The translations under genes were made by a program, and so were the position numbers. A stretch of 64,000 nt of DNA from Sphingomonas astaxanthinifaciens DSM 22298 (GTDB taxonomy: Bacteria > Pseudomonadota > Alphaproteobacteria > Sphingomonadales > Sphingomonadaceae), in NCBI RefSeq assembly GCF_000711715.1, contig NZ_JONN01000001.1, positions 1,550,001 through 1,614,000 on the forward strand, given 5' to 3'. The notes under the pieces were generated by a model that saw only the letters and a program-made list of their open reading frames with translations, searched no databases and was not told the DNA's origin. The first letter of the stretch is position 1, and the number at the start of each line of letters is the position of its first letter. This document shows, piece after piece, positions 8,280-30,160 of the stretch.

Positions 8280-10061
8280 CTAGCGGATCACCCGCCACAT
8301 CTTGAACGGGCTGTCCTTGCCGAGGTCGATCGGCTGAAGCCACGGGAAGGACGCCCCCTTCTCGAGCTGGGCGTAGAAGCCCTTGGGTGTGCGGGCGACG
8401 AAAATGGTCGCCTGGTTCATGTGCGGACAGACCAGCAGATAGTCCGAGCGGTGCTTGGTGATCAGCGCGCGCGCCAGCTCTGGCGAGCCGCGGAAGGCGT
8501 TCATGCTGTCGGCGATCGCCTGCCCATTGCGATGATAGGGTCCACCCAGCGCATCATGGTGGGTGACCGCGATCAGCCGCGGTCCGAGGTCGATGAAGGT
8601 GAAGACCATGCCCTTTGGCTGCCGGGCCACGGGGCGCATCGCCCACATGGTCGGGCAGAGCCGGTTGGCGCGATTGTTGAGCCGGCTGGCTTCGGTCTGC
8701 TTGCTCGCCTTCTCGGGGAAGAAGGACAGGGCCGCGGGGGCCGCCGCGCCGCTCCCGACGAGGACGAGGGCGCTGCTGCCGAGCACTACCACGAGACTGT
8801 TCTTCGCGTTCCACAGCCGCGGCAGCAGGGTCGCGATGAGCCCGGCGCAGCCGACCACGCCGAGCAGTTGCGCGGCGGGTCCGGCGCGGGTCTGCCAGAA
8901 CAGGAGGCCGAAGGCAGCGGCGGCGATGACCGCCAGCGCGAGGATCTTGGGCAGGCGCTCGTCGCAGCGGCGGAGCCAGAGGAGCCAGGCCCAGCCCAGC
9001 AGCCCCGCCACGGGAAGCGAGAGAATGGTGACCTGCGTGCGCCAGGCATGCTGGGTGATCGGGCGCGCCTCGCGGACATTGTTGAGCCATAGCCGCTCGA
9101 CCTCGGGGCTCACCCCTTCGAGCCGCGACAGGCAGTGCGGCCAGGCGAGGGCATGGAAGCCGGCGATGACGAGGCCGGCGGCGGCGGCGATGGCGAGTCG
9201 AACCGTCCAGCGCTGCGGGGTTCGCCAGGCGAGCAGCCACAGCAAGGCACCGCCAAGCAAAGCGTCGGACAGCCAGACCGGCGACAAGGCGTCGCAGACG
9301 GGCGCGCGATTGGCGTAGCTGGCGAAGAGCAGGAAGCCGGCCGCGCAGCCGCCCGCGACGCTCACCGCATAGGCGCCCAGCCGCTCGCGCTCGCGTGGGT
9401 CCGCGACCCACATCAGCACCTGCGCGACCCCGGCCAGCGCCAGATAGATGAGCATCTCGAGCCCGATCGACAGGCTGATCGCAGTCGCGACCCCGACGGT
9501 CAGCCCGCCGCGCCGCCGGTCGGGATCGGCGATCCCGCTCATCGCCATCGCCAGCAGCGCCAGCTGCCAGCCGTGGTGATCGATCCGGGTCGGCATGAAC
9601 ATGCCGTTGGTCGCGCCCGCCAGGTAGAGCGCGAGGAAGGCGGGGACGAAGGCGGCCGGGCTGATCAGCCGGCGCGCGGTCATCGCGATCCCCGCGAGCA
9701 GCACGACGTAAGGCAGCATCGGCGCGACCGCGACCGCCATCTTCTCGGCGTCGGCACCGCTCATGAACAGGCGGCCGAGGAGGATCAGCCCGGCGATGGG
9801 CAGGTCGACGATCCGGCTCCAGTGGATATTGGCGCCGCCGAAGGCGGGGTCGAAGCGATATTGGCGAAGGTCGTACCAGCCCTGCCCGTTCATCCAGGCG
9901 CGGACCTGCGCGATCCGGAGATTGTCGTCGGTGTCGCCGAGCCCGAAGCTCTGGATGCTGCCCCAGCGCTGCCAGGTGAAGACCGCGCAGGCCGCCAGCC
10001 AGGTGATGAGGACCACCCACCGCCAGTTCCGCTCCACCCAAGCCAACAGCCGTTCCGGCAC
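8280..10061 (-). CDS. Polytopic membrane protein, candidate GT-C-fold glycosyltransferase
   Basis: A 593-residue protein with about ten or more hydrophobic helices and a soluble C-terminal domain of ~130 residues. The first outer loop carries D43-T-D45-D46, followed by a WSRIVDLP segment. Such acidic motifs after TM1 are typical of GT-C enzymes that use lipid-linked sugars (STT3/PMT/ArnT superfamily). Start: GTG at 10061 has GGAAGG eight bases upstream; the frame is open to 10220, but that would overlap the divergent gtrA gene. It lies in a cluster with gtrA, a methyltransferase, gtrB and a second polytopic protein, which supports a glycan role. The exact reaction is unknown. Confidence 0.7.
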   Translation of the reverse strand: MPERLLAWVERNWRWVVLITWLAACAVFTWQRWGSIQSFGLGDTDDNLRIAQVRAWMNGQGWYDLRQYRFDPAFGGANIHWSRIVDLPIAGLILLGRLFMSGADAEKMAVAVAPMLPYVVLLAGIAMTARRLISPAAFVPAFLALYLAGATNGMFMPTRIDHHGWQLALLAMAMSGIADPDRRRGGLTVGVATAISLSIGLEMLIYLALAGVAQVLMWVADPRERERLGAYAVSVAGGCAAGFLLFASYANRAPVCDALSPVWLSDALLGGALLWLLAWRTPQRWTVRLAIAAAAGLVIAGFHALAWPHCLSRLEGVSPEVERLWLNNVREARPITQHAWRTQVTILSLPVAGLLGWAWLLWLRRCDERLPKILALAVIAAAAFGLLFWQTRAGPAAQLLGVVGCAGLIATLLPRLWNAKNSLVVVLGSSALVLVGSGAAAPAALSFFPEKASKQTEASRLNNRANRLCPTMWAMRPVARQPKGMVFTFIDLGPRLIAVTHHDALGGPYHRNGQAIADSMNAFRGSPELARALITKHRSDYLLVCPHMNQATIFVARTPKGFYAQLEKGASFPWLQPIDLGKDSPFKMWRVIR

Positions 10062-27382: not shown

Positions 27383-27499
27383 GGGTCGGGTCCCTGTGCA
27401 GCAAGGATGGAGCGGGGAAACAGGAAGGGCCGGAGTGATCCGAAAACCGCCCCGGCCCACCCGTCACCAGCTCGGGGCTGGCGAAGCTTTCGAGAAAGC

Positions 27500-27680
27500 C
27501 TAGCGGAACAGGGACATGATCGCCTGCGGCGCCTGGTTGGCGATCGACAGCGCCTGGATGCCCAGCTGCTGCTTGACCTGGAGGGCCTGCAGCTTGGCGC
27601 TTTCCTTGGCGAGGTCGGCGTCGACTAGATTGCCCACCGAGGCCTCGACGACGTCGCTAAGCTTGCTCGAGCCCAGCAGC
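27500..27680 (-). pseudogene. fliC: Flagellin 3'-terminal remnant
   Basis: On the minus strand, the last ~60 codons read as a flagellin D0 C-terminal helix: [20 protein letters not shown], then [20 protein letters not shown] and the closing SLFR, with a normal stop at 27500. No start codon, N-terminal D0/D1 or variable domain exists upstream. Right of about 27675-27690 the sequence becomes a flgD fragment on the other strand. The remnant cannot make a functional flagellin. The right boundary is approximate. Confidence 0.88.
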
Positions 27681-28171
27681 TCGCGCAATATTCGCAGGTC
27701 GAGCAGTCGCTCCAGCAGACCTCGGTGCTGAAGGACATTCTCGCCCGGCTGGGCGGGGACGACCTCACCCGCGCGGGCACGCTGATCGGGCGCACTGCGG
27801 AGTTTGACAGCTCGGTCTCGGGCCTCTCCACCGACCGGCCGGCCGAATGGCGCTGGAGCTTCGCCCGCGCGCCGCAGTCGCTGACGGCCGAAATTCTCGA
27901 CAGCAGCGGCACGGTCGTCGCCCGGCCCGCCGTTGCGCTCGACGCCAGCGGGACGCTGCAGTGGGACGGCCGGCTCGCCGACGGCAGCCGCGCGCCCGAC
28001 GGCGCCTATGTGCTGCGCTTGAGCGCCAGGGACAGCGCCGGGACGGCCTTGGCGGCCGACATGACCAGCCTCGGCCGGATCCAGGAAGTGATGAGCCGGG
28101 AGGGCGAATTGTGGGCCGGCTTCGGCAGCGTCGCACTGCCGCTCGCCAAGCTGGTCTGGATTGCCGCCTGA
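27671..28171 (+). pseudogene. flgD: FlgD (hook capping protein) 3' remnant
   Basis: On the plus strand from about 27671 the frame reads [20 protein letters not shown], the conserved FlgD N-terminal-domain helix, and continues about 165 codons to a TGA at 28171. The hook-cap Ig/Tudor-like part is included ([38 protein letters not shown]). The first ~70-90 codons of a normal FlgD, including the start and the conserved FLKLL-QDP segment, are absent. A GTG at 27725 could start a 148-residue product, but it has no family-like N-terminus. Followed by a strong bidirectional terminator. Confidence 0.8.
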
Positions 28172-28186
28172 GCGGGACACGAAAAA

Positions 28187-28234: not shown

Positions 28235-30061
28235 TCAGAAGCCGATGCGGACGCCGACCTGGCCGCTGACTTCGTTGCCTTGGTCCTTGCCGGCGGTGGT
28301 GCTGGCGACGACGTCGAGCTGGACCGCATTGGTGATGCGGGCCGAGGCACCGCCGGTGAAGCGGGTGTAGATGCCCTGGTCGCGCTTGCCCGCGTCGAAG
28401 TGGTTGACGATCGTCGGCGAGGCCGTCTGCGCGAAATCGAGCGTGCGGCTGTCGCCCTTCAGGTCCTTCTCGACCATCGCCGAAGCGAACGGACGGAGCG
28501 CGGTGCCAGCAGCGTTGAAGTCGCCGCGAAGCTCGAGCCCGGCGCCGCCGACCAGCGCTTCGTAGCGCTGCTTGCCGACATTGAGGCTGAGCGCCCCGTC
28601 GCCATTCTCGGTGTAGCCGTCGACCTTGGCGCGGGCATAGTCGAGCGCGACCACCGGGCCGACCCGGACCGGGCCGAGCGGGGCGAGGAAGCCGGCCTTG
28701 GCACCCGCCACGATGTGGCTGCCGTTGGGGCTGGCGTCGAGATTGCCGACGACTCCCGAGCGACGGATGTCATAGTCGGTGCGGCCGCCGCCGGCGTGGC
28801 CCTGGATGAACACCGGGCCGAGCGAATAAGCGGCGTAGACGCCGGCCTGCCAGGTCTTGGCCTCCACCCGCGCGCTGTCGACGCCGAACTTGGCGCGCCC
28901 CTTGCTGTAACTGCCGGCGATGCCGACGAGGCCGTTGCCGCCGAAGCCCGCCTCGGCGCCGACCGTGCCGCCGACGCTGTCGATGTCGAACTGGTCGGTG
29001 ACGTCGCTCATGCCGACGTCACGGCTGAAGCTGTCGCCGACCGCGAACAGGCGGACGCCCTCGAGCACCTCGCCGTCGCGCGGACTGCCGACGTCCATGC
29101 GGCTGTTGAGCGTGCGGCCGAACTGGCGCGCGGTGTCGAGCCCGAGGTCGCTGGTGGCACCGATGTTGAGCGGGGCCTGGAGCTGGCGCTGGACATACTG
29201 GCCGACGATCTTGAAGCCATCCGAGCTGAGGTGGAGGTTGTCGACGTAGAACAGGTAGCCCGCGCAGCCCGAGCCGATGTTGGCGGTCGTCGGCGCGCAG
29301 GTGACGCCGTTGGGAACGCCGTAAGCCGCCGGATTGGCCTGGATCGACTGCAGCACCTTGGTGAGGTCGAGGTAATGGACGATCACGCCATTGTTGGCAT
29401 AGCCCGCCAGCATCGACTGGAGCGCGCTGTTGTAGGTCGTCGAGAAGGTGTTGCGGACCGCCTGCGCGGCCGGGTTGGCCGCGACCTCGGGCAGCAGCGC
29501 GGTGTTCCCGGCGAGAAAGCTGATGGTCGGCGCGCCAGCCGCGACCAGTCGGTCGAGCTGGGTGCGCGCGGCCGAAATCGCGTCGTTGACCGTCAGGCTG
29601 CCGTAGAAGCCCTGCTGGAAGTAGCGCGCGTCGTTGCCGCCGATCGAGACGGTGACGAGGTCGCCCTTGCCGAAGGTCGGAGCGCCGTTCGGAAAGGCCG
29701 GGAGCTGGGTCCCGACGTTGAGGAAATTGTCGACCTGGAGCTGGAGGTCGAAGGTCGTCGCCGGGGCGCCGCGCACCGCGGTCGCGCCGCCGATGGCGAA
29801 ATTCTCGACCGGCGCGCCGAGCAGGAAGGACAGGGTATCGACATAGTTGGTGCCGCCCGAGAAGCGGCCCGTCTTGTAGATGCCGCTCTGGAAGGTCGCC
29901 GGGTTGAGCCCGGTCAGCTCGAACAGGTTGCCGTCGTCGGCATAGCTGTCGCCGAAGGTGACGATGCGGTCGATCCGCTGGGCCGACGCCGGCGTGGCGG
30001 CGGCAACGGCGACAAGCGCAGTGGCCCCAAGCAGGGCGCGAGCGCCAAGACGCTGAATCAT
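28235..30061 (-). CDS. Autotransporter with GDSL/SGNH esterase passenger
   Basis: A 608-residue type Va autotransporter esterase. Signal peptide at residues 1-28 (LLGATALVAVAAATPASA). The passenger carries SGNH blocks: block I FGDSYADDGNL, the Gly in NFAIGGATA, block III SIGGNDARYF and block V VDNLHLSSDG (Asp-x-x-His). The C-terminal ~270 residues form a 12-strand barrel ending in VGVRIGF, with the terminal Phe. Similar proteins (EstA/EstP) are surface lipases. ATG at 30061 has GGGGAGGA upstream. Confidence 0.94.
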   Translation of the reverse strand: MIQRLGARALLGATALVAVAAATPASAQRIDRIVTFGDSYADDGNLFELTGLNPATFQSGIYKTGRFSGGTNYVDTLSFLLGAPVENFAIGGATAVRGAPATTFDLQLQVDNFLNVGTQLPAFPNGAPTFGKGDLVTVSIGGNDARYFQQGFYGSLTVNDAISAARTQLDRLVAAGAPTISFLAGNTALLPEVAANPAAQAVRNTFSTTYNSALQSMLAGYANNGVIVHYLDLTKVLQSIQANPAAYGVPNGVTCAPTTANIGSGCAGYLFYVDNLHLSSDGFKIVGQYVQRQLQAPLNIGATSDLGLDTARQFGRTLNSRMDVGSPRDGEVLEGVRLFAVGDSFSRDVGMSDVTDQFDIDSVGGTVGAEAGFGGNGLVGIAGSYSKGRAKFGVDSARVEAKTWQAGVYAAYSLGPVFIQGHAGGGRTDYDIRRSGVVGNLDASPNGSHIVAGAKAGFLAPLGPVRVGPVVALDYARAKVDGYTENGDGALSLNVGKQRYEALVGGAGLELRGDFNAAGTALRPFASAMVEKDLKGDSRTLDFAQTASPTIVNHFDAGKRDQGIYTRFTGGASARITNAVQLDVVASTTAGKDQGNEVSGQVGVRIGF

Positions 30062-30160
30062 GTGAATTTTCCTCCCCGGCTCGAGAGCGTGAGCCACGAC
30101 CGTGGCTATGCCCCGCGTGACCCAAAAATGACAAGTGGCCGCACGGCCACAGTCGGGCGC

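Follow-up and report, generated by a model that had tools for sequence, protein, structure and literature searches.

Flagellar loss is common and normally looks random, and the ends of ordinary deletions are scattered except where they are flanked by repeats or insertion elements. The closest counterparts of the locus described here are the deletion scars of flagellar clusters in motility-losing bacteria, in which two truncated genes are likewise fused at one point, other markers are gone and the clade holds non-motile type strains; the present case differs in that separate lines share the position of the joint. A likeness also exists with Hin and Fim inversion and with the R64 shufflon, where sites are fixed and intact and rearranged forms occur in one species. 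However, no recognised site was found at the present locus, no reciprocal product was seen in the best 120 of 1436 matches, and the outcome is loss rather than switching. In the experimental evolution of Campylobacter jejuni, motility is reported to be lost by mutation or deletion (PMC7677240), whereas here the same joint is present in several natural species. No description of this scar, or of a recurrent fliC-flgD deletion, was found in the open-licence literature searched.

Structure of the fliC-flgD joint

The window analysed is a stretch of 64,000 nucleotides (C1:1550001-1614000) from the genome of Sphingomonas astaxanthinifaciens DSM 22298 (G000; 2.53 Mb, completeness 99.97). An initial annotation, made from the letters of the DNA, had read the C-terminal end of flagellin with its stop on the minus strand and FlgD up to a stop on the plus strand, both genes being broken at one point. 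Profile searches confirmed this reading: the minus-strand frame matched positions 34-86 of the 86 of Flagellin_C (PF00700, E 2.6e-11), the plus-strand frame matched positions 9-77 of the 79 of FlgD_ig (PF13860, E 1e-9), and the exact joint lies between 27670 and 27671 (Table 1). On its fliC side, the gene is readable up to the codon TCG (S) preceding SKLSDV, and on its flgD side the first codon is GCC (A; T in full FlgDs), followed by QQLAQYSQ.

Table 1. Features of the scar locus (window positions) and of the flagellar relic elsewhere in the same genome (genome positions).
Feature	Coordinates	Strand	Evidence and remarks
fliC 3' end (56 codons plus stop TAG) without the 5' part	27500..27670	-	Pfam Flagellin_C
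hook-cap gene flgD, 3' part, 166 codons and stop, without N-terminal domain	27671..28171	+	Pfam FlgD_ig
fliC/flgD deletion joint	27665..27676	.	junction alignments, gap-free in G059, G011, G020 and G017
flgL, intact, 305 codons, and last ~111 codons of flgK	G000:C1:1411437-1412689		166 kb from the scar; both flagellin domains match in flgL

In whole-genome profile searches, no match was obtained in the window genome for the FlgD N-terminal domain (PF03963), FlhA (PF00771), FliF (PF01514) or the rod/hook N-terminal domain Flg_bb_rod (PF00460). FlgD_ig was found at the scar locus only, and Flagellin_C at two places, the scar locus and C1:1411443, in a gene read as flgL; the sole match of the flagellin N-terminal domain (PF00669), at C1:1411935, lies inside that same gene, with none in the fliC remnant. 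No intact copies of fliC or flgD exist elsewhere in the genome, and the scar segments are therefore not duplicates. Since two gene halves are present and the other searched markers are absent, a deletion took out the flagellar cluster that lay between fliC and flgD, and this locus is its healed joint. In agreement with the initial annotation, no further flagellar gene was seen by eye in the gene calls of 10-50 kb, the outer ends of the window being covered by the genome-wide profiles only.

The genome-wide search that the annotation had called for thus found the markers gone, but it also recovered an intact flgL and a 3' piece of flgK (Table 1). This flgK piece is 87% identical to that of the sister genome, S. 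rosea (G059), in which flgE, a full flgK and flgL stand at the corresponding place. In the window genome, the flgK/flgL relic is followed, at 1412872, by a gene read as a phage-type lysozyme; as flgK is reduced to its 3' piece, a second deletion joint lies between the relic and this gene.

Recurrence of the joint in the genus

A DNA search of 71 genomes of the genus, with positions 27460-28180 as query, recovered the whole scar in five: the window genome, S. rosea (81%), S. kaistensis (G011), a genome whose FlgD remnant is that of Sphingomonas sp. LHG3406-1 (G020), and another record called S. kaistensis (G017, 77%). The five sequences aligned without a gap and agreed in the joint position to ~1 base, the bases at the joint being CGAGCC in the window, CGAGCG in S. 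rosea, GGTGCC in G011 and GGTACC in both G020 and G017. A full FlgD is on record for Sphingomonas sp. LHG3443-2. Outside the clade, all 80 FlgD loci kept from 103, a set that may lack records close to the window, carry the N-terminal domain in frame (64 by pattern and 16 by eye).

In two further genomes, S. swuensis (G021) and S. glaciei (G050), the same search found the halves of the scar apart. Both carry a full fliC, to each of which the fliC remnant of the window is 91% identical in DNA, and a flgD that is cut at the scar position and fused to the start of the gene that follows fliL, which is presumably fliM. In S. glaciei, fliC, flgH, flgA, flgG and flgF lie on one strand, followed by fliL with the 28 first bases of the next gene and then by the flgD remnant; S. 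swuensis aligns with it over this segment, its flgG being split into two frames. The gene names were read from translations, with PF00460 and PF00669/PF00700 supporting the rod genes and fliC. Whether flgD is joined to fliC or to the gene after fliL, its remnant starts at the same place within one or two bases. Since S. glaciei keeps flgH to flgF and fliL between a full fliC and an already cut flgD, there was more than one route of loss.

The possibility that S. glaciei recently acquired its fliC-to-fliL segment from a donor like S. swuensis was considered and rejected: the two are 75% identical over 5.3 kb, with 200-base windows inside the segment ranging from 0.60 to 0.89, so there is no sign of recent exchange; an unsampled donor is possible. 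Two other genomes count against a single hot spot. In G003, motA is joined to flgD ~5 bases further in than the common flgD end, and in G049 the flgD piece, which is convergent with a full fliC (L064-L065, 289935-290522), starts ~30 codons after that end.

Other breaks and neighbouring genes

G008 has a fliC piece (L068, about 9785-9950) whose cut, before SKLSDV, is a single codon away from the common fliC end and whose partner is a different one. In the same genome (L069, 7762-8412) and in G044 (L063, 7219-8229), the 5' part of MotA (to ..CDY) is fused in frame to the 3' part of FlhA, which starts from SEAQKLL or TEAQKLL, and the joint is identical in the two. This fusion may be a second recurrent site, but the two cases need not be independent, because GcvPB places G008 nearer to G044 (0.90) than G049 is (0.87). 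The loci L050-L053 hold another kind of flagellar cluster, whose FlgD is short (101 residues in G004, an open frame of 119 in G006); in G006 its third-position GC of about 0.60-0.70 makes it look imported.

Next to the flgD remnant, an autotransporter-like esterase gene (28235-30097 in the window) was observed in the window genome, S. rosea, G020 and S. swuensis, and a gene read as uvrB occupies that side in G017 and S. glaciei and lies one gene further in G011. These differing neighbours reflect rearrangement near the remnant.

One deletion or several

According to the initial annotation, a single deletion explained both truncated genes. A single deletion joint with loss of the cluster stands, but the event is neither private to this genome nor single, given the same joint in four other genomes, the grouping of the carriers outside one clade and an intact and a cut form within one species. 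A single ancestral deletion, inherited by all five scar genomes, would account for the gap-free joint and for the absence of FlhA and FliF matches in every one of the seven clade genomes. However, it conflicts with the trees. The tree of the 1541-residue NAD-glutamate dehydrogenase (GDH) comprised 24 of 30 genomes, G008 (no match) and G007, G010, G060, G073 and G081 (fragments) being left out. In this tree S. swuensis branches first, then the window genome with S. rosea, then G020, G017, and G011 with S. glaciei, all with starred support. S. glaciei, with its full fliC, is thus sister to the scar genome G011 (100/100), and the grouping of the five scar genomes as one clade was rejected on a 10-row GDH tree (p-AU 2.3e-7).

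The tree of the C-terminal part of FlgD pointed in the same direction. It held 66 rows (62 from 95 matches, plus G000, G044, G074 and G083), 36 with the N-terminal domain and 30 without. Full and truncated forms were mixed on it, with at least 14 changes, a figure that is not a deletion count since many truncated rows come from short metagenome contigs and may partly reflect gene-calling or contig-edge effects. The flgD remnant of G017 was sister to the full P0022 (98/83), and a clade uniting the eight scar rows was rejected (p-AU 1.2e-8) in a test that left the identical pair P0009/P0010 free and counted P0001, whose upstream part was not seen, as a scar. A first tree had already been inspected when the two clade tests were made. 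Together with the intact and cut forms described below, these results make a single inherited deletion very unlikely.

Intact and cut forms within one uncultured species

P0009 is a full FlgD of 219 aa. P0010, of 226 aa, is a scar protein in which antisense fliC leads into FlgD at QQLVQYSQ, and the two proteins do not differ in their last 165 residues. As the plus-strand codons of a scar are the reverse complements of flagellin codons, each antisense residue constrains the opposite flagellin residue, and the parent fliC could be sought on this basis. Among the matches listed, 130 flagellins had a matching end and 124 of them could be tested; only one, P0103, was compatible with P0010 over all 56 positions. 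Four other flagellins failed only where P0103 has KLND for KLSD, 4 codons from the joint. P0103 and P0009 have their longest contig (53,016 bases) and their source in common and so probably lie on one contig, a pairing that rests on these two agreements. Since P0103 is the sole compatible flagellin among the 124 and the C-terminal part of FlgD is identical, the P0010 scar most likely formed from the intact fliC and flgD of its own species, and its position matches that of the window scar.

This pair bears on the proposal that a short allele with one or few origins spread between species by homologous recombination in two conserved stretches, the 3' end of fliC and the beginning of the flgD remnant, and replaced the long intact cluster. 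Both flanks are indeed conserved, and the fliC remnant of the window genome is closer to that of G017 (7 silent differences) than to that of its sister S. rosea (14). However, on the fliC side P0010 carries the species-specific N residue 4 codons from the joint, and on the FlgD side its protein does not differ from the intact form of the same species, so that crossovers would have had to fall in a narrow space; in addition, spread of such an allele does not explain the after-fliL joint that ends at the same place in flgD. This proposal is therefore considered improbable.

Because of the tree conflict and the intact and cut pair in one species, it is proposed, with a probability of roughly two in three, that the same fliC-flgD joint arose in several independent events within this Sphingomonas clade and that motility was lost repeatedly and recently via deletions with fixed ends. 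This reading assumes that a full form can become a cut one but not the reverse; if the cluster was regained by recombination, fewer deletions are needed.

Selection on the remaining genes and age of the loss

Among the five scar genomes, pN/pS was 0.03-0.11 for the fliC remnant and 0.31-0.64 for the flgD remnant, and three full FlgDs gave 0.45-0.59. In all seven truncated genomes, the 165 codons of the flgD remnant are without stop or indel. Such values could also be expected if the two fragments were kept for a job of their own, as mini-genes or RNA, the fixed ends being the edge of an element. However, the flgD ratios overlap those of the full FlgDs, which is what a recent loss should produce. 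Inspection by eye showed a conserved start codon in neither fragment, and the plus-strand frame across the joint is stopped in the window, so a function of this kind is very doubtful.

That plus-strand frame runs from antisense fliC into FlgD over 229-277 codons; it is open in S. rosea, G011, G020 and G017 (L054-L057), four of the five scar genomes, and in the window it is stopped within the fliC part. A functional protein across the joint was therefore not kept as the main reading.

Flagellar genes are also retained at a distance from the scar. The flgE-flgK-flgL genes, with genes read as flbT and fliI, are kept in S. rosea, S. glaciei, G011, S. swuensis and G020 (L078-L082, L128, L132) and in G017 (L142), despite the absence of FlhA and FliF. 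Between G011 and S. glaciei, pN/pS was 0.07 for flgL, 0.09 for flgE, 0.12 for flgK, 0.27 for flbT and 0.35 for the flgD remnant, against 0.09 for GDH; in other pairs within the clade, flgL gave 0.27-0.45 versus 0.20-0.38 for GDH. In the G011-S. glaciei comparison, flgE, flgK and flgL are thus constrained about as tightly as a core enzyme, and the flgD remnant is looser, perhaps because faster evolution is usual for FlgD or because it had been cut earlier, already in the ancestor of these two genomes. Since the export gate is gone and flgE, flgK and flgL are still tight, a recent loss in each line fits better than a loss in a distant common ancestor.

Decay of old inert pseudogenes was likewise disfavoured by the lack of stops and indels and by the low pN/pS, even though in G011-S. 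glaciei the flgD remnant is looser than flgL, flgE and flgK. The suggestion in the initial annotation that the loss was recent thus probably stands, the fragments being open and constrained, but not as a private single event. S. glaciei S8-45T and S. kaistensis PB56T are recorded as non-motile and S. astaxanthinifaciens DSM 22298T as motile (PMC9611098); G011 and G017 are both S. kaistensis records, and the type strain PB56T to which the non-motile record belongs may be either genome.

Mechanism of the deletion

If chance alone placed the ends along the 849 bases of fliC and the roughly 660 bases of flgD, both would fall within one base again with a probability of about 1.6e-5 per event. The fixed ends would imply a sequence-directed process of breaking and joining, for which cutting or recombination at set sites seems likelier than chance fragility. 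Motile forms would have persisted until recently in these lines, which could explain the signs of selection in the fragments and in the leftover flgE, flgK and flgL. Candidate mechanisms are a nuclease or recombinase aimed at these sites, recombination that carries a deletion allele from line to line, and local fragility.

Neither a recognition motif nor an enzyme was found. An inverted repeat at the fliC and flgD ends was no better than chance, with 896 to 2474 of 6000 random pairs being as good. A mechanism based on a hairpin or inverted repeat was thus rejected: TTGCTGG-TAC-CCAGCAA in G017 looked striking, but 15 to 41% of random pairs scored as high as the pairs of intact sites. In G083, a TAC codon stands just before the ends of both flgD and flhA, and TAC also precedes the end of motA, there on the retained side; other genomes have TAT or TTC at this position.

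A dedicated sequence-directed enzyme, such as a recombinase, transposase or guided nuclease, might excise the cluster by acting at set positions within fliC, flgD and further flagellar genes and leave the same scar each time, as a programmed or selfish route to non-motility, and this is put forward tentatively. A programmed and reversible excision, in which the cluster leaves as a circle that can return and the sequenced genomes represent the off state, would agree with the fixed ends, with intact and cut forms in one species and with the constrained flagellar genes kept elsewhere. However, no reciprocal joint between the N-terminal parts of fliC and flgD was present in the best 120 of 1436 flagellin N-part matches, where the sole match without the C-terminal domain ends in a frameshift by eye, on a 912-base contig. 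Additionally, the FlgD N-terminal domain was absent from the five clade genomes searched (G000, G011, G017, G020 and G021), and the two type strains mentioned above are described as non-motile. Reversible excision is therefore regarded as extremely unlikely.

Biological meaning

If the same two places were indeed joined repeatedly, a large and costly gene cluster would have been removed by an aimed process and not at random. Forms with and without the scar appear to coexist within one species. The clade would thus offer a natural system for asking how such a removal takes place, as a motile S. astaxanthinifaciens is on record and the 0.7-kb scar product can be counted by PCR.
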